Assembly (NCBI RefSeq): GCF_022482905.1
Contig: NZ_JAKVOI010000001.1
Span: 3,225,958-3,289,957 of the forward strand
Length of the DNA stretch: 64,000 nt
Source of the DNA: Clostridium sp.
GTDB lineage: Bacteria > Bacillota > Clostridia > Clostridiales > Clostridiaceae
Reading direction: 5' to 3'
The notes below the pieces were generated by a model. That model was not told the origin of the DNA, made no database searches, and was given only the letters and a program-made list of their open reading frames with translations. Positions 5,393 through 22,705 of this stretch are shown here, one piece after another. A program made the position numbers and the translations under genes. Positions within the stretch are counted from its first letter, which is position 1. Every line of letters begins with the position of its first letter.

Positions 5393-5424
5393 AGTTAAAA
5401 ATCTTAAATAAAACCTGTAATTTT

Positions 5425-5504
5425 GAAATAAAGTTTAACCATTTGAAAAAAAGTCGCACCATTTGTAAAAAAGTTTAATCATTTGAAAAAAAGATGAATC
5501 AAAA
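5425..5504 (+). repeat. Four tandem 20-bp TnsB-binding-like repeats (glmS-proximal end)
   Basis: Four units with an exact 20-bp period start at 5425, 5445, 5465 and 5485. The shared pattern is GAAAWAAAGTTTAAYCATTT; unit 2 deviates in its centre (GTCGCACC) and unit 4 in its second half. Tn7 carries four overlapping TnsB sites at its glmS-proximal right end, so position, number and density all agree with a transposon end. Confidence 0.8.
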
Positions 5505-5635: not shown

Positions 5636-6475
5636 ATGTCAAAAAGAAAAAGAAACATTAATGTAGAAAAAATGATTAAAGAAGGAAGAGGCCAAGGAAT
5701 AGGCTTTGAATATAAGCCTTGGATTAACATTCAAGATGTGCCGTCTTTAGGGAGGAGTACTAGATTAAAAGGAATAAAGACAGGAAGAGAACATCAATTT
5801 TTATCCGATATGGAAAGAAATTATTTTTATATTCTTGAATATTCAGAACAGGTTGTTGATATTAGGTAACAATTTCCACTTTTACCTTTAGAGGATACCC
5901 TTCTTATTGCAAATGAGCTTGGTTTAGAACATCCTAAAAACCCTAAAACTGGTGAATATGTTGTAATGACAACAGATTTTTTAATAACTAAAAATGATGA
6001 TAATAAATTAACTGAAGTAGCTAGAACAATAAAAGCTAAGGACAAATTATTTAATAAAAGAATACTTGAAAAATTTGAAATTGAGAGAGTGTATTGGGAG
6101 AAAAGAAAAATAGATTGGGGAATTGTAACGGAAAATGAAATAGATAAAACTATTGCAACTAATATAAGCTTTGCATATGGATATAAAAATATTAAAGACC
6201 TAGATTGTTTTGAGGGTATTGAAAAGCTTGAATTTATTGATTTAATCTATGAATTTATAAAGAGAATAGTAGGAAGTAATAAAACTATGAGAACTATATG
6301 CAATACCTTTGACAAAGATATGAGTCTTGAAATAGGAAGCGGTTTGAGTATATTTAAGTATTTGATTATAAATAAAATTATCGAAGTTAATATTGTTGAG
6401 AAAATAGATGTTAATAAAGTAATACCAATTACTAATGTAATTGAAAAGTCTATTAATAAGTTGGAGGCAATATGA
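5636..6475 (+). pseudogene. tnsA: Tn7-like transposase endonuclease subunit TnsA, nonsense mutation
   Basis: TnsA makes the 5'-strand cuts at the transposon ends together with TnsB. The frame is open from ATG 5636 (AGGTGG site upstream) to the stop at 6473-6475, except for one TAA at codon 78 (5867-5869). There the family motif would read VVDIREQFPLL but here reads VVDIR-stop-QFPLL; one base change (GAA to TAA) explains it. The catalytic acid candidate E60 lies before the stop; D114 (MTTDFLI) and the lysine of TEVARTIK lie after it, matching the nuclease core of TnsA. The C-terminal half matches the TnsC-contacting domain by position. The stop overlaps the tnsB start (ATGA). Confidence 0.85.
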
Positions 6476-8541
6476 TTACAATTAATACTGTCTTTAAATA
6501 TACAGATACAGGTACTAGAATTAGAATCATACATGTTTCAAAAGAAAATGTTTATTATGTAAACATCGATTCAGTTACATCTATGCCTAAAAAGGAACTA
6601 TTACGAATCTTACAGGATGAAGTAGATGCAAATAGGTTAATGGTTATAAAAGATCCTTTTGCAAGATTAATTGATGAAAGTAAACTTTCAAAAATTCAAA
6701 TAGATAAAAGAAATATGGATTGGGAATTTATTTCAAAGTATTGGGAAGAGAAGAAACATGATATTTTAAATGTAAGCACTAGGAATAAAACGCTTAAAGA
6801 AATGGCAGATGAAAGCCATTTAAGTTTAACAAAGGTGAAAAAAATACTAAGTAGATACTGGCAAAGAGGGTTAAGTAAAAATTCGTTGCTACCCGACTAT
6901 ATAAATTCTGGAGGAAGAGGAAAAGAAAAGAAGTTAACTGAAAATAAAGTAGGTAGACCTAAGAGAGCTGATTATAATGGCAATATAATACAAGGAATAA
7001 ATATAACAGAGAATATAAAAAAACAATTTAGTTTTGCCATAAATAAATATTATAGAAATGCAAATAAAATATCATTAAAAGAAACATATGAGCTAATACT
7101 AAGAGATTTTTATTCTGATACATATAAAGAAAATAATGAACTTAAATATAAAGTATGGGATAAATCAAGAATACCTACTTATGACCAATTTTATTACTGG
7201 TTCAAAAAAAATGAAGATCCAAAGAAGGATATAGTTTTAAGAGAAAGCGCGAAGGAATTTGAATTAAAAAATAGAGAACTGCTTAGTAACTCAACAATTG
7301 AAACAGATGGACCGGGTACAAGATTTCAGGTGGATGCTACAATTGCAGACATTTATTTAGTTAGTTCTTTAGATAGAAACAGGATTATAGGTAGGCCTGT
7401 AGTTTATGCCATAATTGATGTTTTTTCAAGACTTGTAACAGGTATTTATGTTGGTTTAGAGGGACCATCATGGCTTGGAGCTATGATGGCACTGAATAAT
7501 ATGATTACAGATAAGGTTGAATTTTGTAAGAGTTATGGTATAGAAATAGTGGAGGAGCAGTGGCCAGCTAAACATATTCCAGATATTATAATAGCTGATA
7601 GAGGAGAGTTTGAAGGGTATTCGGTAGAAAATTTGATAAATAATTTAAATATTAAAATAGAAAACACACCACCATATAGAGGAGACTTAAAGGGAATAGT
7701 TGAGAGAAGTTTTAAAACTACTAATGAGAAAATCAAGCACAAGACCCCTGGTGCAATCCAAAAGGAATATAGGAAAAGGGGAGATAGGGATTATAGGCTG
7801 GATGCAACCCTTACTTTAGAAGAGTTTACAAAGATATATATAAACCTTGTATTGGAACATAATAATAAACAAATTGACAAGTATCCAGTAGAAATTGAAA
7901 TGCTTAAGGATAACATAGCTCCAATTCCATCAGCACTTTGGAATTGGGGAATAGAAAATAAAAAAGGAAGACTTAGAACTGTTGATAGAGAGGTTTTAAG
8001 ATTAAATGTACTTCCGAGGGGCAGAGCTAATGTTTCAAGAGCAGGTATAAGATTTAAGGGATTATATTACGGTTCACAAAAAGCACTGGAGGAGCAGTGG
8101 TTCATAAAATCAAAGGTTAGAAGTATAGAAATACTGTATGATCCAAGGAATATGAATAATATTTACATTTCCTATGAAGAAGGCAAAAGCTTTGAAACGT
8201 GTTATTTACTTGATCCAAGTAAACAGTATGAGGATTGCATTTTAGAGGAGATTATATTTAATTTTGAACTTATTTCAGAGTTAAAGGAAGCACAAAAGAA
8301 TAGGCAAAATCAGCTAAAAGTTGATGTCGATTTAGAAATAGATAAAATAGTCAAAGCTGCTAGAAAGAAAAAGTCTATAGAGATTAATGGTGAAAGTAAT
8401 AATAAAAAGCTTAAAGGAATCAAAATAAATAGAGCAGTTGAAAAAGAGCTTAATAGAGAAAAAGAGGCCTTCAAGTTGGGAAAGGAAACTATTTCGGCTG
8501 AAGGCGCAGAAGTAATAAAATTAAATGCAAGTAGTGGATAG
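6472..8541 (+). CDS. tnsB: Tn7-like DDE transposase TnsB, C-terminus replaced by IS
   Basis: TnsB binds the transposon ends and carries out 3'-strand cutting and joining. This 689-residue frame (Tn7 TnsB has about 702) has an N-terminal DNA-binding region (about 1-260), an rve/RNase H core and a C-terminal beta and helical region. The catalytic triad is D288 (FQVDATIAD), D376 (IIADRGEF) and E411 (KGIVERSF). Its spacing of 88 and 35 residues equals that of Tn7 TnsB. The start overlaps the tnsA stop by ATGA. The last residues and the stop codon are supplied by the IS3 element inserted at 8535, so the natural tail, which contacts TnsC in Tn7, is missing. Confidence 0.9.
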   Translation: MITINTVFKYTDTGTRIRIIHVSKENVYYVNIDSVTSMPKKELLRILQDEVDANRLMVIKDPFARLIDESKLSKIQIDKRNMDWEFISKYWEEKKHDILNVSTRNKTLKEMADESHLSLTKVKKILSRYWQRGLSKNSLLPDYINSGGRGKEKKLTENKVGRPKRADYNGNIIQGINITENIKKQFSFAINKYYRNANKISLKETYELILRDFYSDTYKENNELKYKVWDKSRIPTYDQFYYWFKKNEDPKKDIVLRESAKEFELKNRELLSNSTIETDGPGTRFQVDATIADIYLVSSLDRNRIIGRPVVYAIIDVFSRLVTGIYVGLEGPSWLGAMMALNNMITDKVEFCKSYGIEIVEEQWPAKHIPDIIIADRGEFEGYSVENLINNLNIKIENTPPYRGDLKGIVERSFKTTNEKIKHKTPGAIQKEYRKRGDRDYRLDATLTLEEFTKIYINLVLEHNNKQIDKYPVEIEMLKDNIAPIPSALWNWGIENKKGRLRTVDREVLRLNVLPRGRANVSRAGIRFKGLYYGSQKALEEQWFIKSKVRSIEILYDPRNMNNIYISYEEGKSFETCYLLDPSKQYEDCILEEIIFNFELISELKEAQKNRQNQLKVDVDLEIDKIVKAARKKKSIEINGESNNKKLKGIKINRAVEKELNREKEAFKLGKETISAEGAEVIKLNASSG

Positions 8542-8613
8542 GCTACAATAAATAAAACAACTTTTTTAGGAACATGATATAATAAAATAATTATAGAAAA
8601 GGGGAAATTAATC

Positions 8614-8910
8614 ATGTCTGAAAAAAAGGAAACAAAAAAGAGACATAATTATACAACGGAATTTAAGAATCAAATAGTAGAACTTTATCATAATGGTAAG
8701 ATGAAAAGTGAGATTGCCAGGGAATATAGTCTATCATTATCAATGGTGAGTAGATGGATAAGGCAGTCTGAAAATACGGGGTCATTTAAGGAAAAGGATA
8801 ATCGAAGCAGGGAAGAACAGGAACTTATAGAACTGCGCAGGAAGAACAAACAACTTATGATGGAGAATGATATTTTAAAACAAGCTGCGCTGATTTTGGG
8901 ACGAAAGTAA
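8614..8910 (+). CDS. IS3-family transposase OrfA (helix-turn-helix)
   Basis: A 98-residue protein with an N-terminal helix-turn-helix (FKNQIVELYHNGK...IAREYSLSLSMVSRWI) and a leucine-rich coiled coil ending in ENDILKQAALILGRK, typical of OrfA. It recognises the IS ends. The ribosome site is GGGG about 8 nt before the ATG. The protein is identical in both copies in this window. OrfAB fusion by -1 frameshifting is usual in the family; I see no unmistakable slippery heptamer near its end. Confidence 0.93.
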   Translation: MSEKKETKKRHNYTTEFKNQIVELYHNGKMKSEIAREYSLSLSMVSRWIRQSENTGSFKEKDNRSREEQELIELRRKNKQLMMENDILKQAALILGRK

Positions 8911-8912
8911 AT

Positions 8913-9746
8913 GTGATAAGGAAGAATTCCCACAAATACTCTGTATCAGCAATGTGCAAAGTCCTCCAGATTTCAAGAAGTACCTATTACTATAAAAGTA
9001 GAAAGAAAAACAGTGAAGATGCTCTTATATCTATGATTAAGGACATATTTAACTCAAGCCGGAATAATTATGGAACACGAAAAATCAAGGTTGAGTTACA
9101 GAAAAAAGGATACAGAGTTTCAAGGCGGAAAATAGGCAGAATAATGCAACAAAATACTCTTGTATCCAGTTATACAAAATTAAAGTTCAAACCACATGTG
9201 GATAAATTCAATGAATCAAAAATAGATAATCTGGTTAAACGGGAATTTAAGAATCAACCATACAGGAATGTTGTAGTAAGCGATCTTACATATGTCAGAG
9301 TTAGAGACAGATGGGAGTATATCTGCATACTTGTTGACCTTTTTAACTGTGAGATTATAGGTTACAGTGCAGGGAACCATAAAGATGCAGCATTAGTAAG
9401 AAAAGCTTTTGCAAAAGTAAATGGCAATCTAAGGAATATTGAAATTTTTCATACAGATAGAGGTAATGAGTTTAAAAACAAAATTATAGATGAGGCAATG
9501 CTGGCCTTTCAAATTAAACGTTCACTTAGTATGAAAGGATGTCCTTATGATAACACAGTTGCAGAAGCAGCATTTAAAATTATAAAAACAGAATTTGTAC
9601 GTGGAAAAGTATTTGAATCACTTGATGAGTTGAAATGGCAGCTAGCAGATTATGTTAACTGGTTCAATAACCATAGAATTCATTCATCTCTTGGATATGT
9701 AACTCCATATCAATTTAAGTTAAATAACCTTAAAAAAGTTGTCTAG
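8913..9746 (+). CDS. IS3-family transposase OrfB (DDE integrase core)
   Basis: A 277-residue catalytic subunit with an HTH_21-like region (NYGTRKIKVELQKKGYRVSRRKIGRIM) followed by an rve core. The DDE residues lie in VVSDLTYVR, FHTDRGNEF and DNTVAEAAFK; the C-terminal HSSLGYVTPYQF motif is also typical. The listed start is GTG 8913, three bases after the orfA stop, in the -1 frame. It differs from copy 2 at seven residues (for example P/S in KFKPHVD, C/R in DLFNCEII, L/R in EAMLAF), so the copies have diverged a little or came from different donors. Confidence 0.93.
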   Translation: MIRKNSHKYSVSAMCKVLQISRSTYYYKSRKKNSEDALISMIKDIFNSSRNNYGTRKIKVELQKKGYRVSRRKIGRIMQQNTLVSSYTKLKFKPHVDKFNESKIDNLVKREFKNQPYRNVVVSDLTYVRVRDRWEYICILVDLFNCEIIGYSAGNHKDAALVRKAFAKVNGNLRNIEIFHTDRGNEFKNKIIDEAMLAFQIKRSLSMKGCPYDNTVAEAAFKIIKTEFVRGKVFESLDELKWQLADYVNWFNNHRIHSSLGYVTPYQFKLNNLKKVV

Positions 9747-9765
9747 AAAAATGTTGACATTCCAC

Positions 9766-10536
9766 ATATATCATCCAAGCTTGGAGGAAACTAAAGTTAG
9801 CAATCAAGCAAAGATAAGAAAATATGTTAATAAGAACTCCAATTCAAACAGAGAATTAACCTCAGAAGGTAATGGGTCAACGAGAAATTCAGAAGAAATA
9901 GACACTTCATCAATAGAACATGAATATGAAAGACTTCCTCAAATAAATAAAAAGAAAAAAGGTCTTAGAATAACAAGAAAAGTTGAAGATGAAAATACCA
10001 AGAAATATATTTTAGAAGATGATCATTTAAGAACAACAGCAGATGCCGGTGGAGAAGAAGTAATTAGAGGATTAGAATTTAAGAATGTAGATAAAGTTGA
10101 AGAAAAAGGTGAATTGACAGAGTTTATTGATATTTTAAAGCTTTTACAAAAACGACATAACATAAAAACAGTTGAGGTAATTACGGGAGAACTCCCTGAG
10201 GGAAAAAAAGGCAAGAGATTTGCAAGACTTAGTGATGGAGTTACTAGGAGAAGGTATGCTATAGGGAAGGTTGCTATGATGGATGGTAGAGAATGCAGTT
10301 TGATTGAGGCTGAAAGGGAAGGTAGGGCTTTGTCAATGCTGATACTAAAATCTCAAAAATTAATGAATTGGAAAGCGATTTATAGTATACTATTATTGGG
10401 AGTTGTTAATGAAAGTGGAAAATGGAGTAATGGTGCTATTAAAGAAGTTGAAGCATTGGAAGTTCAAGTTATAAGAAATAAACATATTAATAAAGAATTA
10501 TATAATAAAGTAATTTTTATATACAAAAAATTATAG
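9766..10536 (+). pseudogene. tnsE: TnsE-like target-selection protein, C-terminal remnant
   Basis: The open frame begins inside the IS right end (possible ATG 9751) and reads 257 residues of non-IS sequence to a stop at 10536. The C-terminal part contains ITGELPEGKKGKRFARL, SDGVTRRRYAIGKV and SLIEAEREGRALSMLIL, which I recognise as the pattern of the TnsE C-terminal domain; in Tn7 TnsE (about 538 residues) directs insertion into replicating plasmids. The order tnsA-tnsB-(missing)-tnsE fits Tn7. The N-terminal half, plus tnsC and tnsD, is absent, apparently removed in the event that placed the IS here. The identification rests on memory of the family pattern plus gene order. Confidence 0.65.
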
Positions 10537-10696: not shown

Positions 10697-13600
10697 ATGA
10701 ACAATAAATATAAAATTTTTATAGAGAATTTAAATAATAATGAATATTATACCAGTTCAAATATATTTGAAGAGTTAATATCATTATTAGAATATAAGGA
10801 TTCTATAAATTTTAAAATTAATAATGGATCCGGAGATTTATATGATGCAACTTATAGTATATCATTGGATGGCAAAAATTACACAGTTTTAGGTATAAAA
10901 AAATTGAATTTTATAGATGAAAGAGAAATAGTAAAAAATCATCTAAAATATTGGAATAAGAATGATATACCGTTTTCTATAATTATTTTACCTAATGAAA
11001 TAAGAATATATAACAATTTTGCAATAGATGAAAGTAAGATGTTGTTTTCTTCGAAGAAAAATAATAATATTGATTTATTAGAATTATTGAGTAATGAGAA
11101 CATTATATCAGGATTAGTGTTAGAAAAATTAAATTTATATATTAATAAAAAAAATCGTGTTGATACAAGGCTTTTAAGCAACCTTAGGGAGACAATAAGA
11201 AGGTTGTACAATAAATGCCATATGCCATTAAAAAATGCGTATGATTTTTTAGCACAATGTATATTTATAAAGTACCTGGAAGATAGAGGAATGATAGGCG
11301 AAAGTGCCTTTTTGCCTTATAAAGCAAGCAATTTTGTAATGTTACTAAAAAATAATGACACGGAAAAAATAAAAAAATTTTTTAGATATATGAAAAAAAG
11401 ATTTAATGGAGATTTGTTTGATATAAGTGATAAAAGTCCTTTTCCTAACAAAAATGAAATTAATGTTGTATATGATTTTTTTCTTGGTGATGATATTTAC
11501 ATTGATGGTAATTGTCAAATTACGATGTTTTATTATGATTTCGCTATAATTCCTATAGAACTTATAAGTAATATATACGAAACATTTTTTGATTTAGGTG
11601 ATGAAATTTTAAAAACTAATACTGCAAATACTAATGGAGCTTATTACACACCTTATTTTTTAGCAGATTTTATGATTGATAAATGTTTTAATCAAGTTGA
11701 AATGTTGGATGGTAAAAATTTAATTAAAGTACTTGATCCTGCATGTGGTTCTGGAATATTTTTGGTCGAAGCCTTTAAAAAAATGGTTAATTATTACATA
11801 GGAGAACATGGCACAATAGATGGAAATACATTAACTGATATTTTAACTAATAATATATTTGGAGTCGACATTAATGAAGAGTCGTTGAAAATAACATGCT
11901 TTAGTTTATATATAGCGTTATTGGAATATTTAAAACCAAAAGATATTATGGAGAATAGGTTTAAATTTCCAAACCTTATAGGAATAAATTTACATAGGTG
12001 TAGTTTTTTTGATAGTGAACTTAATGAAATTAATATAAAAGCTGATTTAATTATTGGAAATCCACCTTGGGTAAGTAAAAATGAAGGAGATCATATAGAT
12101 TATTGTAAAAAAAGAAGTATACCTATATCTGATGGACAATTGGCACAAGCTTTCTTATGTAGGGTTGAAGATTTTTGCAATAAGAATACGATTATAACAT
12201 TAATAGTACCAAATAGCATTTTTATTAATCATAATGCAAAAGAATATAGACGATTTTTTTATGAAAATTATGAATTGCTTGAAATTTTCAACTTAAACAG
12301 ATTAAAGAATATGCTATTTATAAATGCTAGTGCACCATGTTCAATTGTGTGTTATAAAATACTTAGAATGAATAAAAACAATTATAATTTTAATTATTAT
12401 TCATTTAAACCTAATTTGTTTTCAAAATTATTCAATAAAATAGTTTATGATAAGGCCGAAATTATTAAAATAAATAGAAATATTGTAGAAAAATATGATT
12501 ATATATGGAGAGTATTGACTTATGGAGATGAATTTGATTTTAGGGTAATAAAGAAGTTATATATGAATAACTGTACATTAGGAGAATTGATTAATAGCAA
12601 AGAAAGTAAGCTAATGTGTGAACGTGGATATGTAGTTGGAAATAAGAAATATGAAAGAAAAGAATTTCTTAAATTTCGCGGAGGAAATCTAAAAAATGCA
12701 TTCGGAAAGTATATTATAGATTATAAAAATTTGCCTAAAATAACACAAGAATACTATGAAAGACCTAGAAAAACGGAAATGTACAAATATAAAAACAAAA
12801 TATTAATTAAACGTACATTCAATAGAAAAAATTGGGGAGCTGCTTATTGTGAAAATCCTATATTGTTTACAGATGATTTCCATTGTATTGCAGATAAATC
12901 GGGTAATAATAAATTGATAATAAGATACTTGGAGGCAGTTATTAATTCAAAATTATTTCATTATTATTACATTCATACTACTAAGATTATGTCTTCTATT
13001 AAGCCTGAATTAAGTAAAGTAGATCTGTGTAATTTTCCTATTGTAGATGTAAAAGGTAATAAGGAACAAATTATAAAAATTTGTGATAAGACTATTAAAA
13101 TAGAAAAATTATTAGGTGAGATACAAACAATGGCTATTGAAGACATACAAAAGCAAGAAAAGGCTATGATAATAGAAGATATTCAAAAAGACATAGACAA
13201 TATGATTTATGATTTATATAAATTAAATGATATAGATAAAGAAACGATAAAGTATACATTTAATGACATTGAACCTGAGATTTACAAGAAAACATTAAAA
13301 AAGGAGATAGCTACTACGAAGGATTATAAAATATATTCTAAATATATTTGTGATTATTTTAATAGATTATTGAAAGGTCAAGATATTAATGTAGTTGCAT
13401 CTAAAAATTATTCAAAACAATTGTATACAATTGTTTTTTTTAGGATAAGTAATTGCATTAATGATAATTCAGATGATTGTTTAACTGAAAAAATTTTAGA
13501 AAAAATACCTGATTTATTGGGAATAATGAGTTTAGAAAATCTAAATACAGAAGTGATTGTTAAAAATAATATTAGCGGTTTTTTACAAGAAGGTTTTTTT

Positions 13601-13711
13601 GTTATAAAAACAAAAGAATATAAAAATTGGACCAAGATGAGTGCAATAAAAGATGCAAATTATTTTGTTGACTGCATTTTTAATTCTTTTGAGGGGGCGG
13701 AAAATTTATGA
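10697..13711 (+). CDS. N6-adenine DNA methyltransferase (Eco57I/type IIG/ISP-like)
   Basis: This 1004-residue protein has methylase motif I at DPACGSGIF (D347) and the catalytic motif IV NPPW at 455-458, the signature of N6-adenine or N4-cytosine methylases. Residues 1-150 resemble the front domain of type IIG/ISP enzymes (YTVLGIKKLNF, then IPFSIIILPNEIRIYNN). There the nuclease glutamate of a D-X(n)-EXK motif appears replaced (LGIKK), so this part is probably not an active nuclease. Residues about 640-800 look like a TaqI-type specificity region. The ATG at 10697 has a GAGAGG site. The stop overlaps the next start (ATGA), indicating coupled translation with a nuclease. Cargo of the Tn7-like element; likely restriction or phage defence. 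Confidence 0.85.
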   Translation: MNNKYKIFIENLNNNEYYTSSNIFEELISLLEYKDSINFKINNGSGDLYDATYSISLDGKNYTVLGIKKLNFIDEREIVKNHLKYWNKNDIPFSIIILPNEIRIYNNFAIDESKMLFSSKKNNNIDLLELLSNENIISGLVLEKLNLYINKKNRVDTRLLSNLRETIRRLYNKCHMPLKNAYDFLAQCIFIKYLEDRGMIGESAFLPYKASNFVMLLKNNDTEKIKKFFRYMKKRFNGDLFDISDKSPFPNKNEINVVYDFFLGDDIYIDGNCQITMFYYDFAIIPIELISNIYETFFDLGDEILKTNTANTNGAYYTPYFLADFMIDKCFNQVEMLDGKNLIKVLDPACGSGIFLVEAFKKMVNYYIGEHGTIDGNTLTDILTNNIFGVDINEESLKITCFSLYIALLEYLKPKDIMENRFKFPNLIGINLHRCSFFDSELNEINIKADLIIGNPPWVSKNEGDHIDYCKKRSIPISDGQLAQAFLCRVEDFCNKNTIITLIVPNSIFINHNAKEYRRFFYENYELLEIFNLNRLKNMLFINASAPCSIVCYKILRMNKNNYNFNYYSFKPNLFSKLFNKIVYDKAEIIKINRNIVEKYDYIWRVLTYGDEFDFRVIKKLYMNNCTLGELINSKESKLMCERGYVVGNKKYERKEFLKFRGGNLKNAFGKYIIDYKNLPKITQEYYERPRKTEMYKYKNKILIKRTFNRKNWGAAYCENPILFTDDFHCIADKSGNNKLIIRYLEAVINSKLFHYYYIHTTKIMSSIKPELSKVDLCNFPIVDVKGNKEQIIKICDKTIKIEKLLGEIQTMAIEDIQKQEKAMIIEDIQKDIDNMIYDLYKLNDIDKETIKYTFNDIEPEIYKKTLKKEIATTKDYKIYSKYICDYFNRLLKGQDINVVASKNYSKQLYTIVFFRISNCINDNSDDCLTEKILEKIPDLLGIMSLENLNTEVIVKNNISGFLQEGFFVIKTKEYKNWTKMSAIKDANYFVDCIFNSFEGAENL

Positions 13712-14337
13712 TTGATAAAACATCGCAAGATTCTCCCTGGTGGTTTAGAAAAGTAAAAACAGGGGTAATAACTAATTATATTAAATTGATAGTATATAGC
13801 TATAATGAAATAAAAAATCATAAATTTTCTAAAACTCCAATAGAAGATACTAGACGAAATTTATTAGTTGAAAGTATGTCTAAAAACAAAAGTATGTTTG
13901 GAATAATCTTTAATATATCTACTGAAAATGGAACATATGATAAAGAAACTTATAAAGATACTGGTCGTATTGATATATGTTGTTATATTAGTGAATTACA
14001 AGATAAATATATTGCATTTGAATGTAAAAGATTTATAAAAAATAACATGACCGCAAGTCATTTTAAAGATCAGTATTTAAATGAGGGTATGAAGAGATTT
14101 TTTGATAACATTTATTCAGAGAATATGGATATAGGTGGAATGATTGCGTTTGCAGAGACAGGTGATTTTACGAAACTGGACAGGCTTCTTTCGTTAAATC
14201 TTAATAATATAGCATTAGATGGATCATTTAAAGATATATCCTCAAAATATGAGCATAATAAAGTTTTTGAAACAAAACATAAAAGAATTAACGGTAATAT
14301 TATTACGTTGTCACATATTATAATGGATTTTACATGA
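13708..14337 (+). CDS. Small PD-(D/E)XK nuclease-like protein, coupled to the methylase
   Basis: A 209-residue protein with no family name that I recognise. It carries a convincing PD-(D/E)XK core: GRIDICCY (D89) followed after 15 residues by IAFECKRF (E105, K107). An earlier acidic residue in RRNLLVESM could complete the metal site. A large hydrophobic-aromatic start (DSPWWFRKV) precedes it. The ATG overlaps the methylase stop codon by ATGA, so the two are made together, which suggests a restriction subunit paired with the modification subunit. A role in cleavage is inferred from motif and coupling only. Confidence 0.65.
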   Translation: MIDKTSQDSPWWFRKVKTGVITNYIKLIVYSYNEIKNHKFSKTPIEDTRRNLLVESMSKNKSMFGIIFNISTENGTYDKETYKDTGRIDICCYISELQDKYIAFECKRFIKNNMTASHFKDQYLNEGMKRFFDNIYSENMDIGGMIAFAETGDFTKLDRLLSLNLNNIALDGSFKDISSKYEHNKVFETKHKRINGNIITLSHIIMDFT

Positions 14338-14738
14338 GTGTAAAAAACGATTAATTAAATATAGATACCGCATTTTTCTTAATATAATTGAAATTTATTG
14401 AGATAACTATTGTGAATCAATGGTTTGATTCAGCAAGTTTTTGCATACAAAATTTTATTTTAATTATAATATCTTTAATATTAAAAGAGTTCAGATAAAA
14501 GCATATTAAAAAATATTAAATGATTTTATTCTATAACAAAAATAAAACTTTATAATTAATTAGAAATTAAAGATTTTGTGAAAGATAAAATATTGTAAAG
14601 CTTAAAAGCGCACAAATTGTTTGAATTATAGGAATAAAACAAATTAAGTAAAAGATATAATCTATGTATATATAAGATAATTTAATATTAACTTTATATA
14701 TTTATTAGTAATTAATATAATGTTTGGGGGAGAATGAG
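14338..14738 (+). other. 401-bp AT-rich gap with one hairpin
   Basis: No gene is seen. A short hairpin (GAATCAA-TGG-TTTGATTC near 14413-14430, followed by TTTTTG) may end the methylase-nuclease transcript weakly. The rest is extremely AT-rich and could hold a separate promoter for the helicase gene, so the helicase may be expressed independently. Confidence 0.4.
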
Positions 14739-17237
14739 ATGGTTGATTTCAAAAAATTGAGAGAAAAGAGAAAAACTGCAGATCCAATTAAACCATATGA
14801 TATTTTTAAAAGACTAGCACCAGAAGGAATAAATGACTTGTGGCATAGCCAACAAATAATATTAGATGAATGGTTTCAAAGAAGGAATGAAAAAGATCTA
14901 GTAATAAAACTAAATACAGGTGGAGGCAAAACAATAATAGGATTGCTAATAGCACAATCTATTGTTAATGAAACTAAAGGCTCAGTTCTTTACTTGTGCC
15001 CAACAAATCAACTTGTAAGCCAAACATTTGATAAAGCAAAACAATATGGAATAAAGGTGGCTAAGTATGTTTCAGGAAAAGGAATACCGATAGGATTTAA
15101 AAGTGGAAATTGCATAATGGTTGCTACATATAGTGCACTATTCAATGGTATGTCTACATTTGGCTTGGAAGGTGATGTAGATATTACTTCAGTAGAGGGT
15201 ATTATTTTTGATGATGCTCATACTTCTGGATCTATAGTGAGGGATCAGTTTACTTTGAAAGTAGAGTATAATGATAAAAATAGTGAACTTTACGATGAAA
15301 TAGTAGGAATATTTAGGAATGATTTTAAAGATATTGAACGAATTGGTATATTCGATGATGTTACAGGTGGTAAAGATAGTAAAGTACTAGAAGTACCATA
15401 TTGGGCATGGAAGGCAAAAGAAATTCAAATTAGAAATTTATTAAAAGACAAATCTGATCAATTTAAATTTCAATGGAAACTATTGAGAGATAACTTAAAA
15501 TATTGTCATTGCTTAATTGATACAAAAGAAATAAGTATAACGCCTATATATCCACTAGTTAACTTGTTTCCAACATTTATAAATTGCAAAAAGAGGATTT
15601 ATATGTCGGCTACTTTAGCTAATGATAGCACCATTATTACAACCTTTGATGCGGATTATAATTCAGTATTAAATCCTATAGAGGTAGATAGTAATGTTAG
15701 TATGGGAGAACGAATGATATTAGCACCAGCATTAATGAACATAAACGCTGATATAAAACAATTGGTAAAAGATCTGTGCAAGGTAATATCAGAAAAATAT
15801 GGAGTTATAATTTTAACACCATCGTCAATAGCTTCAAATCAATGGACTGAAATAGGAGAATTTGCAGCTAAAAGTGCAGAGGTATTAGCACAAGTGGAAA
15901 AAATGACGAAACATGATAGCAAGGGCCCCTTTATTTGGGCTAATAGATATGATGGTATAGACTTACCAGCAGATACTTGTAGATTATTAATTATGGCAGG
16001 AAAACCTGGAGTTATGAATGCATATGATAGATATATCGCATCTGTATTAAATGGTAGTCAGTTAATAAATTCAATTGTTGCACACAGAATCGAACAGGGA
16101 ATAGGGAGAGCGACTAGGGGAGCCGGAGATTATTGCGTTATTTTACTTGAAGGTGATGATATAATAACTTGGATAAGTGAGCGCTCAAATTTAAATTTAC
16201 TCAGTCCATCTACAAGAGCACAGCTAGAACTTGGCAATGATATAAGTAAAGAAATAACAAATGTAGATGAATTATATTCAACTATTAAGAGGTGTTATGT
16301 TAGAGACCCAGAGTGGACTTCACTTCATGCGGAAATGTTAGCAGATATAAGTAATGATAAAATAAGTTATGAAAAAACTATTAAAGAAGCAGCGGCAGAA
16401 AGAAGATTTTTTAATTATTACTTAATTGGTGATCTAAATCTTGCAAAACAAGAATTAAATAATTTAATTAAGGACGTATTGGATATCAAGTTGAAAAGTT
16501 GGTTAAAACAAATATTAGCTAAGATTTATAATGATTTAGGTGAAAGAGATAAAGCTAGGATTTTACAAAAAGAAGCTTATAAAGGAAATAATCAATTATT
16601 TAAGCCACTTTCTGATATACCATATGAATATTTACAAGAGCCATCTAATCAATCAAAAAAAATAGTGGATAGTTTAAAAAAATATTCCTATAGGAAGGGG
16701 CTTATAAGCGAAATTAGTAACATAACATCTAAATTAACACCGAGTTCATCAGCAAATCAATTTGAAAATTCTATGAAGCAGTTAGGAAATTTAATTGGTT
16801 TTGAATGTCAAAGACCAGAATATGTATATGGAGAAGGTCCTGATGTATTATGGAGAATAGAAAGTAAAAAGTTTTTAATAATAGAATGCAAAAGTAAGAA
16901 GAAAACAAAAAATCCATTAAATAAAAAAGAACATGGTCAGCTATTAGAGTCATTTGAATGGTTTAAGGAAAAGTATCCAGGATGTAAAGGAGAAAAAGTA
17001 TCATTACATCCTACAGATTTTGTCACAGAAGGTGCACATACTAATGAAACTTTGGTATTTACATTAAAATCTTTAAATAAATTAATAGTTAATGTTAACA
17101 GTCTTTTTAATGAATTGTGTTATTTAGATTTTGATGAAATTACTATGAACAGAAAATGCGATGAGTTGTTAAAAAAATTCAAGCTTTTACCAGATAGCTT
17201 TATTAATGAGTATTGCGAAAAATTTAAATCTGTATAA
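14739..17237 (+). CDS. DEAD/DEAH-type helicase fused to a C-terminal PD-(D/E)XK domain
   Basis: An 832-residue protein. The start is ATG 14739, 7 nt after a GGGGGAG site; a TTG upstream would swallow that site. Superfamily 2 motifs are clear: Walker A TGGGKT (60-65), VLYLCPTNQL, DDAH (158-161), YMSATL and QGIGRATRG near residue 460. A helical region (about 540-640) follows, then a nuclease-like core: GEGPDVLW (D702), 13 residues, then IIECKSKKK (E716, K718). ATP-driven translocation coupled to cleavage is a plausible role. It follows the methylase-nuclease pair and shares the ECK motif with the small nuclease. The set resembles a split type I/ISP restriction system, but I cannot match it to a named defence system. 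Confidence 0.8.
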   Translation: MVDFKKLREKRKTADPIKPYDIFKRLAPEGINDLWHSQQIILDEWFQRRNEKDLVIKLNTGGGKTIIGLLIAQSIVNETKGSVLYLCPTNQLVSQTFDKAKQYGIKVAKYVSGKGIPIGFKSGNCIMVATYSALFNGMSTFGLEGDVDITSVEGIIFDDAHTSGSIVRDQFTLKVEYNDKNSELYDEIVGIFRNDFKDIERIGIFDDVTGGKDSKVLEVPYWAWKAKEIQIRNLLKDKSDQFKFQWKLLRDNLKYCHCLIDTKEISITPIYPLVNLFPTFINCKKRIYMSATLANDSTIITTFDADYNSVLNPIEVDSNVSMGERMILAPALMNINADIKQLVKDLCKVISEKYGVIILTPSSIASNQWTEIGEFAAKSAEVLAQVEKMTKHDSKGPFIWANRYDGIDLPADTCRLLIMAGKPGVMNAYDRYIASVLNGSQLINSIVAHRIEQGIGRATRGAGDYCVILLEGDDIITWISERSNLNLLSPSTRAQLELGNDISKEITNVDELYSTIKRCYVRDPEWTSLHAEMLADISNDKISYEKTIKEAAAERRFFNYYLIGDLNLAKQELNNLIKDVLDIKLKSWLKQILAKIYNDLGERDKARILQKEAYKGNNQLFKPLSDIPYEYLQEPSNQSKKIVDSLKKYSYRKGLISEISNITSKLTPSSSANQFENSMKQLGNLIGFECQRPEYVYGEGPDVLWRIESKKFLIIECKSKKKTKNPLNKKEHGQLLESFEWFKEKYPGCKGEKVSLHPTDFVTEGAHTNETLVFTLKSLNKLIVNVNSLFNELCYLDFDEITMNRKCDELLKKFKLLPDSFINEYCEKFKSV

Positions 17238-17815: not shown

Positions 17816-17967
17816 AATATGATCAAACTTTATTTCAAAAATAAAACATCAAAAAAATAAAAGCAGCCAAGTTTTGCTCAAACTTTATTTTAAAATTTAT
17901 TTTATGTTCCAACGAAGTTAAGCTATTTCTTAAAGATAATTTGATCAAACTTTAATAATAAGTTAAT
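17816..17967 (-). repeat. Three dispersed TnsB-binding-like sites (distal transposon end)
   Basis: Read on the minus strand, the units are GAAATAAAGTTTGATCATAT (17816-17836), AAAATAAAGTTTGAGCAAAA (17873-17892) and TTATTAAAGTTTGATCAAAT (near 17940-17957). They are inverted relative to the four units beside glmS and spaced about 60-65 bp apart, like the three separate TnsB sites of the Tn7 left end. The terminus should lie near 17967 by spacing, but the expected TGT there reads ATT/TAT, so the tip seems mutated. Confidence 0.65.
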
Positions 17968-19869: not shown

Positions 19870-20550
19870 GTGAATGACTATAAAATACTTTTAGTAGAAG
19901 ATGAAAGACAAATGGCAATGTTTATTGAAATGGAACTTACACATGAAGGATATAAAGTTGATGTAGCATATGATGGAAGGGAAGGATTAAAAAATTTAGA
20001 AAATAAAGAATACGATTTAATCCTTCTTGATGTTATGTTACCAGGCTTAAATGGAATTGAAGTCTGTAGAAGGATCAGACAATTTTCTTATGTGCCTATT
20101 ATAATGTTAACAGCTAAAAGTGACATACCTGATAAAGTATTGGGGCTTGATGCTGGAGCTAATGACTATTTAACGAAGCCTTTTGCAATAGAAGAATTAT
20201 TAGCAAGAATTAGGGTATACATGAGAAACAAAATATTAAAAAATAAACTTGATGAAATCAAAGTAAAAGATGTAGTCATGGATAATAAAACACATCAGGT
20301 ATGGAGAGCTGGTAAAGAAATAGGACTTACAAAAAAAGAATTTGACATTCTTGAAATGTTGCTAATCAATAAGAATATTGTACTTACAAGAGAACAATTA
20401 ATTGAAAAAGTATGGGGATATGATTATGTGGGAGATACAAATGTAGTAGACGTATTTATAAGATATTTAAGAAGTAAAATTGATGATGATTTTGAAGATA
20501 AGCTTATAAGTACAATAAGAGGTGTAGGATATGTTATTAAAGAAAATTAA
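19870..20550 (+). CDS. OmpR-family response regulator
   Basis: A 226-residue cytoplasmic regulator. The GTG start follows GGAGGTGGTAAT directly. The receiver domain has the acidic pair ED (11-12), the phosphoacceptor D54 (LLDVMLPGLNG) and K in LTKPFAIEEL. A winged-helix DNA-binding domain (about 130-225: LTKKEFDILEMLL, REQLIEKVWG, DVFIRYLRSKID, TIRGVGYVI) follows. Intact although its partner kinase is destroyed. The kinase start overlaps its last codons. Likely targets are nearby membrane genes (PepSY, PAP2). Confidence 0.93.
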   Translation: MNDYKILLVEDERQMAMFIEMELTHEGYKVDVAYDGREGLKNLENKEYDLILLDVMLPGLNGIEVCRRIRQFSYVPIIMLTAKSDIPDKVLGLDAGANDYLTKPFAIEELLARIRVYMRNKILKNKLDEIKVKDVVMDNKTHQVWRAGKEIGLTKKEFDILEMLLINKNIVLTREQLIEKVWGYDYVGDTNVVDVFIRYLRSKIDDDFEDKLISTIRGVGYVIKEN

Positions 20551-21218
20551 GAATACTTTCAATAATATGATAAATAGACTTCAAGGAGCATTTGACAGGC
20601 AAGTACAGTTTGTATCGGATGTATCCCATGAACTTAAAACTCCTATTGCAATTATTCAAGGATATGCTAATTTACTTGACAGGTTGGGAAAAGATGATAA
20701 AGAAGCTTTAGAGAAGTCAATTCATGCAATTAAATTAGAGTCGACTAATATGGCTAATTTGGTTGAGAGATTATTATTTATTGCTAAAGGTGATAGTGGA
20801 ATACAAAAAATAGAAAAAAAGAATTTTGGCTTAATGAGCTTATTTCTGAAGTAGTTAGAGAAAGTAAATTGATAGCCTCGAATCATATAATATCAAATGA
20901 TAGGAATGATACTGTTAGTATTATTGCCGATTACAAAATGATAAAGCAGATGTTGAGAATATTTATTGATAATAGTATTAAATTTTCACCAGGGCAGAGT
21001 ACAATAGATATAAGTTCAAAAATATATAATAATAAGATAAGGATAACTATAAGTGATAGGGGTATTGGGATACCCCAAAATGAAGTTGAAAAGATATTTG
21101 ACAGATTTTACATTGTTGATAAATCCAGGTCTAAAGAAAAGGGAGGAACAGGTCTTGGATTATCTATAGCAAAGTGGATTGTTGATATGCATCATGGGAC
21201 TGGAATGTCAACATTTTT

Positions 21219-22052
21219 CTAGACAACTTTTTTAAGGTTATTTAACTTAAATTGATATGGAGTTACATATCCAAGAGATGAATGAATTCTATGGTTATTG
21301 AACCAGTTAACATAATCTGCTAGCTGCCATTTCAACTCATCAAGTGATTCAAATACATTTCCACGTACAAATTCTGTTTTTATAATTTTAAATGTTGCTT
21401 CTGCAACTGCGTTATCATAAGGACATCCTTTCATACTAAGTGAACGTTTAATTTGAAAGGCCCTCATTGCCTCATCTATAATCTTATTTTTAAACTCATT
21501 ACCTCTATCTGTATGGAAAATTTCAATATTCCTTAGATTGCCATTTACTTTTGCAAAAGCTTTTCTTACTAATGCTGCATCTTTATGGTTCCCTGCACTG
21601 TAACCTATAATCTCACGGTTAAAAAGGTCAACAAGTATGCAGATATACTCCCATCTGTCTCTAACTCTGACATATGTAAGATCGCTTACTACAACATTCC
21701 TGTATGGTTGATTCCTAAATTCCCGTTTAACAAGATTATCTATTTTTGATTCATTGAATTTATCCACATGTGATTTGAACTTTAATTTTGTATAACTGGA
21801 TACAAGAGTATTTTGTTGCATTATTCTGCCTATTTTCCGCCTTGAAACTCTGTATCCTTTTTTCTGTAACTCAACCTTGATTTTTCGTGTTCCATAATTA
21901 TTCCGGCTTGAGTTAAATATGTCCTTAATCATAGATATAAGAGCATCTTCACTGTTTTTCTTTCTACTTTTATAGTAATAGGTACTTCTTGAAATCTGGA
22001 GGACTTTGCACATTGCTGATACAGAGTATTTGTGGGAATTCTTCCTTATCAC
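21219..22052 (-). CDS. IS3-family transposase OrfB, copy 2
   Basis: A 277-residue DDE transposase nearly identical to the copy at 8913-9746. The catalytic motifs are VVSDLTYVR, FHTDRGNEF and DNAVAEATFK. Arginines in DLFNREIIG and EAMRAFQIK are the residues usually seen in this family, so this copy looks the more canonical of the two. Confidence 0.93.
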   Translation of the reverse strand: MIRKNSHKYSVSAMCKVLQISRSTYYYKSRKKNSEDALISMIKDIFNSSRNNYGTRKIKVELQKKGYRVSRRKIGRIMQQNTLVSSYTKLKFKSHVDKFNESKIDNLVKREFRNQPYRNVVVSDLTYVRVRDRWEYICILVDLFNREIIGYSAGNHKDAALVRKAFAKVNGNLRNIEIFHTDRGNEFKNKIIDEAMRAFQIKRSLSMKGCPYDNAVAEATFKIIKTEFVRGNVFESLDELKWQLADYVNWFNNHRIHSSLGYVTPYQFKLNNLKKVV

Positions 22053-22054
22053 AT

Positions 22055-22351
22055 TTACTTTCGTCCCAAAATCAGCGCAGCTTGTTTTAAAATATCATTC
22101 TCCATCATAAGTTGTTTGTTCTTCCTGCGCAGTTCTATAAGTTCCTGTTCTTCCCTGCTTCGATTATCCTTTTCCTTAAATGACCCCGTATTTTCAGACT
22201 GCCTTATCCATCTACTCACCATTGATAATGATAGACTATATTCCCTGGCAATCTCACTTTTCATCTTACCATTATGATAAAGTTCTACTATTTGATTCTT
22301 AAATTCCGTTGTATAATTATGTCTCTTTTTTGTTTCCTTTTTTTCAGACAT
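22055..22351 (-). CDS. IS3-family transposase OrfA, copy 2
   Basis: A 98-residue helix-turn-helix plus coiled-coil protein identical in sequence to the OrfA of copy 1. OrfB follows two bases after its stop in the -1 frame. Confidence 0.93.
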   Translation of the reverse strand: MSEKKETKKRHNYTTEFKNQIVELYHNGKMKSEIAREYSLSLSMVSRWIRQSENTGSFKEKDNRSREEQELIELRRKNKQLMMENDILKQAALILGRK

Positions 22352-22705
22352 GATTAATTTCCCCTTTTCTATAATTATTTTATTATATCATGTTCCTAAA
22401 AAATGTTTTATTTATTGTAGCCTATCCAGACTATAGATGTAGAAAGTGAGGAAGGTAAATATACAAACATAACGGTTGCGTTGGATTTAGATAAATAAAG
22501 AAAATATAGGGCATTCCTTAAGGTAAATCTAAGTTTATTTTAATATAATTTTAATCTTAAGTATAGATAATTTATATCATATATTTATTATATTTTATTT
22601 ATCTGTTGTAACTGGAGATATTATTAATTGTCATTATAATAATATCCATTATTTCAGGAATAGTTGCATTTATTGAAGAAAAGAGAAATGGAGGTGATAG
22701 CGAAG

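Follow-up and report, generated by a model that had tools for sequence, protein, structure and literature searches.

A conserved methylase-nuclease gene pair next to a relative of Hna: two probable anti-phage systems on a decayed Tn7-like element of Clostridium

The window analysed here is a stretch of 64,000 nucleotides (nt) from Clostridium sp. (contig NZ_JAKVOI010000001.1), in which three large genes are carried as cargo by a decayed Tn7-like element located downstream of glmS. This cargo probably comprises two independent anti-phage systems: a two-gene restriction-modification system (10697-14337), formed by a DNA methyltransferase and a small nuclease of the PD-(D/E)XK type, and a relative of Hna (14739-17237). 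The genes are most likely two neighbouring defence systems, and not one, because the trio does not co-occur at the other loci examined (0/80 methylase loci, 0/14 Hna loci) and because the helicase alone matches Hna and the PADLOC model PDC-S28. A preliminary description of this DNA had grouped the three genes into a single module, a view that is rejected here on this lack of co-occurrence at the loci examined. It had also proposed a split restriction system with two nuclease centres; the two PD-(D/E)XK centres stand and the nuclease appears to be split off from the methylase, while the helicase has to be taken out of that system as a neighbour. Restriction-modification, Hna and the carriage of defence genes by Tn7-like elements were already known, the last being described in PMC8649781.

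The methylase and the small nuclease as a two-gene unit

The first gene of the pair (10697..13711, + strand) is an open reading frame (ORF) of 1004 amino acids (aa) that holds the motifs DPACGSGIF and GNPPW and matches the Pfam families Eco57I (67 bits) and N6_Mtase (53 bits), as well as the PADLOC model PDLC03603 (256 bits). Judged from these matches, it is a gamma-class N6-adenine DNA methyltransferase with a type IIG-like architecture. The second motif is conserved in the family, reading GNPPW in 73 of 75 aligned methylases and GNMPW in the other two. The second gene (13708..14337, + strand) encodes a protein of 209 aa, and its ATG at 13708 overlaps the methylase stop codon by 4 nt, in the sequence ATGA. 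The coordinates, the NPPW part of the methylase motif, the overlap and the residues D89, E105 and K107 of the small protein had all been given correctly in the preliminary description. In fact, these three residues and E46 are kept in all 81 small nucleases of an alignment from which duplicates and pieces under 180 aa were excluded. This four-residue pattern is that of a PD-(D/E)XK enzyme, for which catalysis is predicted.

Apart from this pattern, the small nuclease (about 210-250 aa in the family) is not well described by any PADLOC, Pfam or NCBIfam model. HSDR_N matches one of 68 members (6.2e-4), the search of the same 68 sequences with NCBIfam yielded one weak match to a different family, and none of the four members scanned with PADLOC gave a match; no helicase match was obtained with the 209-aa protein either. 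When this protein was used as a single query, no relative appeared in 193 further genomes from the family, in the genome contigs or in the phages, and three distant relatives were found in plasmids. Such searches understate the nuclease family, because a genome of the same family (locus L012) does carry a member.

The association of both genes was evaluated at the best 80 of 302 relatives that a five-member methylase alignment retrieved from a collection with one genome per species. These loci come mostly from metagenome-assembled genomes and, according to their record titles, belong to Firmicutes, Bacteroidota, Chloroflexota, spirochaetes, Patescibacteria, Methanosarcinales and others. Flanks of up to 6 kb were taken on each side, less on short contigs. 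In 76 of them the sequence extends 600 nt or more beyond the methylase, and the small nuclease is the next gene on the same strand in 75 of these. The other four contigs (L024, L026, L090 and L097) are too short, and L024 ends in a nuclease fragment. In 74 of the 75 pairs, a possible start codon lies no more than 30 nt from the end of the methylase gene, and the nearest choice, which is biased towards adjacency, overlaps the stop in 59 of them; the two genes may be translationally coupled. Viewed from the nuclease side, a methylase adjoins the gene in 3/3 plasmids, in 3/3 hits in genomes other than that of the window (398 genomes searched) and in the single viral contig (1/1). Methylase and small nuclease are therefore a conserved two-gene unit.

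The lone exception among the 76 loci is L027 (5776-8835), whose methylase has no nuclease gene beside it despite ample sequence downstream and is possibly solitary. In another genome, the contig (L015) stops inside the methylase, and a second viral contig (L127) carries a methylase relative. On two alphaproteobacterial plasmids (L007, 5217-5693; L008, 5208-5684), a protein of 158 aa overlaps the methylase start; from an impression of its sequence it looks like a helix-turn-helix regulator of the MerR type, and the copy of L007 gave no PADLOC match.

No recurrent third gene was detected in the flanks of the 80 loci by BLAST clustering, which a very diverged gene could escape. The commonest extra family in these flanks is a relative of type III methylases (8/80 loci; the four of these eight that were scanned are all MTase_III). 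In three loci (L030, 3783-12160; L033, 3893-12229; L066, 3867-12133) the pair lies inside a type III system, between its modification and restriction genes, and in L077 the arrangement is looser. In these four contexts the upstream gene matches the PADLOC model MTase_III with 613-649 bits, and the downstream gene is REase_III.

Target recognition and the place of the pair among restriction systems

Type IIG is the best PADLOC label of three methylases, those of the window, of L012 and of L006. With the type IIG enzymes (PDLC03603 and PDLC03623; MmeI) the window methylase shares a gamma-type N6-adenine methylase domain that is preceded by a long N-terminal part and followed by a variable region, all in one chain. 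In type IIG enzymes, the nuclease sits in the N-terminal part. In contrast, within the first 150 residues of the 75 aligned methylases no column exceeds 44% Asp, 67% Asp or Glu, or 61% Lys, indicating that the N-terminus is devoid of conserved catalytic nuclease residues, and the nuclease is encoded by a separate, adjacent gene. By sequence, the pair fails the defining feature of type IIG enzymes, which is a nuclease in the same chain as the methylase. The arrangement is also reminiscent of type I systems (HsdM/HsdS/HsdR), where the methylase and the recognition part form a platform and the nuclease is another chain. Unlike them, the pair lacks an ATP-driven translocase, its recognition region is apparently fused to the methylase, and its nuclease has only about 210-250 aa. 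No translocating HsdR was found with the pair, neither through a helicase match of the 209-aa protein nor as a recurrent third gene in the BLAST clustering of the flanks of the 80 loci; the adjacent Hna relative is not an HsdR.

The presumed target-recognition region comprises residues about 617-876 of the window methylase (about nt 12545-13324, + strand), and was placed there by its variability and by analogy. Comparison of 2775 methylase pairs yielded 17 whose catalytic parts share 80% identity or more. In one of these, L028/L048, the N-terminal parts are 84% identical and the catalytic parts 86%, but identity falls to 32% in the residues that match 641-850 of the window methylase and returns to 82% after them, while the nucleases are 86% identical. 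A sliding comparison of the two methylases showed that the divergent stretch sets in steeply on its left side and fades more gradually on its right. The simplest reading of this sequence comparison suggests that the recognition region has been replaced and the nuclease left unchanged, in which case the specificity of the nuclease would come from the methylase. More replacements of this kind were sought in 299 genomes of the family to which the host of L048 belongs, and only one other match was found, 46% identical.

According to these data, we propose a widespread architecture, unnamed in the catalogues that were searched, in which a methylase with a fused recognition region directs an obligatory small nuclease, encoded by a separate, overlapping gene, so that specificity can change through replacement of the recognition region alone; it would be an intermediate between type I and type IIG systems, and we regard the case for it as evenly balanced. 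In the mechanism that we consider probable for the pair of the window, the methylase, through its target-recognition region, would protect the host's own sites, and the 209-aa protein would be the nuclease subunit that cuts unmodified DNA, such as that of an incoming phage, at or near the sites found by the methylase. Both proteins would form one restriction complex, like a type IIG enzyme with its nuclease as a separate chain. If this is correct, a restriction system exists at 302 places, 80 of them examined here, whose nuclease lacks a fitting family model and whose methylase carries the label of a self-sufficient type IIG enzyme. The pair also resembles the separate-nuclease step that is needed between type I and type IIG in a model of restriction-modification evolution; nuclease fusion in this evolution is discussed in PMC6158711. 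No name for this two-gene architecture was recognised in the literature searched, with REBASE and most subscription papers beyond reach.

A number of observations weigh against this proposal. The L028/L048 pair is the single clean swap among the 17, only its left edge is steep, and L028 is a short metagenomic contig of 7.6 kb; the looser pairs L033/L042 and L033/L077 dip in the same way, with nuclease identities of 59-60%. The position of the recognition region itself derives from variability and analogy rather than from a structure. With a mean column identity of 0.27, the small nuclease varies about as much as this region, and over all pairs its identity correlates with that of the variable region (0.84) and with that of the catalytic part (0.90), so the nuclease may have a role in specificity of its own, which such correlations neither prove nor rule out. 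Regarding the assignment of the small protein, the conservation of E46 drops to at least 90% in two MAFFT alignments (A3 and A5) that were trimmed more tightly at the start, and Pfam support is weak, with PDDEXK_9 found in 8 of 68 members (best 3.1e-4). The profile behind the figure of 75/76 had been enriched, after a first pass with a five-member profile, with members of the same loci. Finally, 55 of the 75 methylases have a loose match to D-x(6-30)-(D/E)xK within their N-terminal part, at no fixed column. A dead PD-(D/E)XK domain in this N-terminus was considered and set aside, since a profile comparison with the small nuclease gave no match, and our claim is limited to the lack of conserved catalytic residues there.

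The alternative that survives best, although we judge it unlikely, is an orthodox type II system. Target recognition would then be a property of the small nuclease alone, and the role of the large methylase would be to protect the target. As expected of such systems, the restriction and modification genes are separate and adjacent. The PD-(D/E)XK fold is the commonest among type II enzymes, and the small nuclease is predicted to belong to it. The co-variation of nuclease and methylase identities (0.84-0.90) is likewise in line with this alternative. However, orthodox type II nucleases of differing specificity are mostly not alignable with each other, whereas here members of a single nuclease family stand after the methylase in 75/76 loci of bacteria and archaea. 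Moreover, the nuclease stays unchanged across the difference in the recognition region of L028 and L048, albeit in one case, and a chain of about 210 aa would leave little room for a separate recognition domain.

An even less probable alternative, which we consider doubtful, is that the small protein is an accessory of a modification-based defence similar to BREX, acting for example as a nuclease restricted to modified or replicating phage DNA or as a regulator of the methylase. Like PglX/BrxX, the methylase is a large Eco57I-like N6-methylase, and the family profile shows distant similarity to the catalytic domains of BrxX and MmeI (44.9 and 43.8 bits). The best solved relatives of the family (84.9 bits) are adenine methyltransferases for which no nuclease is named. 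Nevertheless, the window methylase reaches 56.6 bits with the BREX models, far below their cut-off of 500 bits, so that membership in BREX was rejected. The flanks compared show no recurring BREX partner, nor any other recurrent third gene by BLAST clustering, while the four catalytic residues of the small protein are conserved in 81/81 sequences. No PglZ was found among the window genes scanned. Membership in MADS was also rejected (38.8 bits versus a cut-off of 720), and no DISARM methylase appears in the best 25 of the 33 PADLOC matches of the window methylase, a comparison made with no cut-off test. The two-gene restriction system with a methylase-directed nuclease is retained here as the preferred reading of the pair.

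The relative of Hna

The third gene (14739..17237, + strand) encodes 832 aa from its ATG, and a longer ORF with a TTG start lies within 14724-17237. The ATG at 14739 is preceded by a GGGGGA stretch, and the protein start that it defines (MVDF) matches that of the solved Hna chain. A phmmer search of the Protein Data Bank sequences gave one strong relative (E 1.5e-122), the 845-aa chain of entries 10UJ, 9YHN and 9YKJ, with residues 6-837 of the TTG ORF aligned to residues 1-844 of the chain; the remaining six matches are weak helicase matches (E 4e-4 or worse). Two of these entries, 10UJ and 9YKJ, were deposited with a 2026 paper on Hna (PMC13381803), and it is through these deposit codes and the length of 845 aa that the chain was identified as Hna. 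The PADLOC model PDC-S28 matches residues 6-835 with 918.7 bits; a survey of Bacillus cereus genomes treats PDC-S28 as a PADLOC candidate containing proteins that DefenseFinder gave to another system (PMC11811056). The preliminary description had been unable to place the three genes in BREX, DISARM, Hma or Druantia; this gene by itself matches a catalogued system, Hna/PDC-S28.

The gene encodes a superfamily 2 (SF2) helicase with a C-terminal PD-(D/E)XK nuclease. The catalytic residues D702, E716 and K718, correctly named before when numbered from the ATG at 14739, correspond to D707, E721 and K723 in the TTG ORF. The last of them aligns with K729 of Hna, whose replacement by alanine abolishes the nuclease activity (PMC13381803). 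As described in the same source, the Sinorhizobium protein is a 3'-5' exonuclease of single-stranded DNA that is restrained by ATP and dimerisation and released by the phage single-stranded DNA-binding protein (SSB), and the S. meliloti Hna is a single-effector abortive-infection system triggered by this SSB. The window protein shares with Hna a full-length alignment with the S. meliloti protein, the SF2 helicase motifs, the C-terminal D...ExK residues, the MVDF start, the single-gene organization and the frequent presence of relatives on plasmids. In contrast to the Sinorhizobium Hna, it is a diverged homologue from a low-G+C genome, to which abortive infection and activation by SSB may be attributed by homology. 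It is a full-length relative of Hna and most likely a separate single-gene abortive-infection system, which would act independently of the pair.

A translated search identified relatives of Hna in 213 plasmid records (E 1e-30 or better). Fourteen other Hna loci were examined, corresponding to 11 of these records and to three genomes other than that of the window that gave hits at 1e-60 in a search of 391 genomes from the class, one of them on a contig of only 5.5 kb. At E 1e-5, neither methylase nor small-nuclease relatives occur in any of the 14 loci, and, reciprocally, none of the 80 methylase loci has an Hna relative in its flanks. That methylase, nuclease and helicase-nuclease work together as one split three-gene restriction system is hence very improbable: the genes are adjacent, uninterrupted and co-directional (all on the + strand), they are the sole large ORFs from the tnsE remnant to the distal repeats of the carrier, and cargo genes of a single element could cooperate, but the trio recurs nowhere else among the loci examined, the helicase corresponds to a single-effector system, and the hna gene is separated from the nuclease stop by 401 nt and differs from the pair in G+C content (30% versus 24-26%). 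A scan for promoters and terminators in the window found sites no more numerous than in shuffled sequences. Adjacent defence genes on one mobile element thus need a co-occurrence test before they are read as one system.

Other restriction genes do appear beside relatives of Hna. In L014 (989-6932), the hna gene comes right after a gene for a type IV methyl-directed restriction enzyme and PDC-S07, in a defence cluster from which the pair is absent, and in L112 it is accompanied by genes for a cytosine methyltransferase and Vsr. The lactococcal plasmid pMRC01 (NC_001949.1; L110, 6001-8535) encodes a relative that is 34% identical to the window protein. The title of its reference describes this plasmid as encoding phage resistance and bacteriocin, and its phage resistance could be based on Hna.

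The Tn7-like carrier at glmS

The Tn7-like carrier is real yet decayed. The cargo is flanked on one side by the remains of a tnsA/tnsB/tnsE set, which lies downstream of glmS, and on the other by end-like repeats (17824-17955), all features being on the + strand. The glmS-proximal end holds three repeat copies with 20-bp spacing (5422..5493). It is followed by tnsA (5636..6475), which has an in-frame stop and Pfam matches to the N- and C-terminal TnsA domains in its open part (5966-6475), by tnsB (6472..8541; Mu-transpos_C 33 bits, PADLOC TnsB 50 bits), by an IS3 element at the place expected for tnsC and tnsD (8614..9746; NF033516 251 bits, HTH_Tnp_1), and by a remnant of tnsE (9739..10536; TnsE_C 53 bits). 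The distal end (17824..17955) holds copies of CAAACTTTA at 17824, 17879 and 17946, related to the glmS-proximal repeats.

These TnsA, TnsB and TnsE matches, the end repeats, the site downstream of glmS and the defence cargo are common to Tn7 and to the Tn7-like elements inserted at attTn7, and they bear out the earlier proposal of defence-type cargo on such an element. Unlike in Tn7, tnsA is interrupted, an IS3 element is inserted, and tnsC and tnsD were not found: the + strand ORFs that reach 90 aa in the interval 5.9-10.6 kb gave no TnsC match, and their only TnsD match, from a small ORF of the IS3 element, is below threshold (15.6 bits versus a cut-off of 32.4). Of the components of a mobile Tn7-like element (intact TnsA, TnsB, TnsC, a target selector and two ends), the complete set is not present, although the ends are. 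Given the interrupted tnsA, the failure to find tnsC and tnsD, and the IS3 insertion, the element is probably immobile. Restriction-modification is the commonest defence cargo of Tn7-like elements according to the accessible part of PMC8649781, which makes no mention of the methylase-nuclease pair.

The boundaries of the element, for which genomes of the same genus were compared, are approximate. A stretch resembling the distal end is present in one of these genomes (78% identity over about 155 nt), and stretches resembling the ends of the window element were seen in two (G142:C22, locus L117, and G114:C2, locus L118); related Tn7-like elements may be circulating in the genus. The IS3 element is present in two copies in the window (8551-9760 and 21151-22420), which are 98.8% identical and in opposite orientation. 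Directly next to the second copy lies a split and shortened histidine kinase gene (20531-21222).

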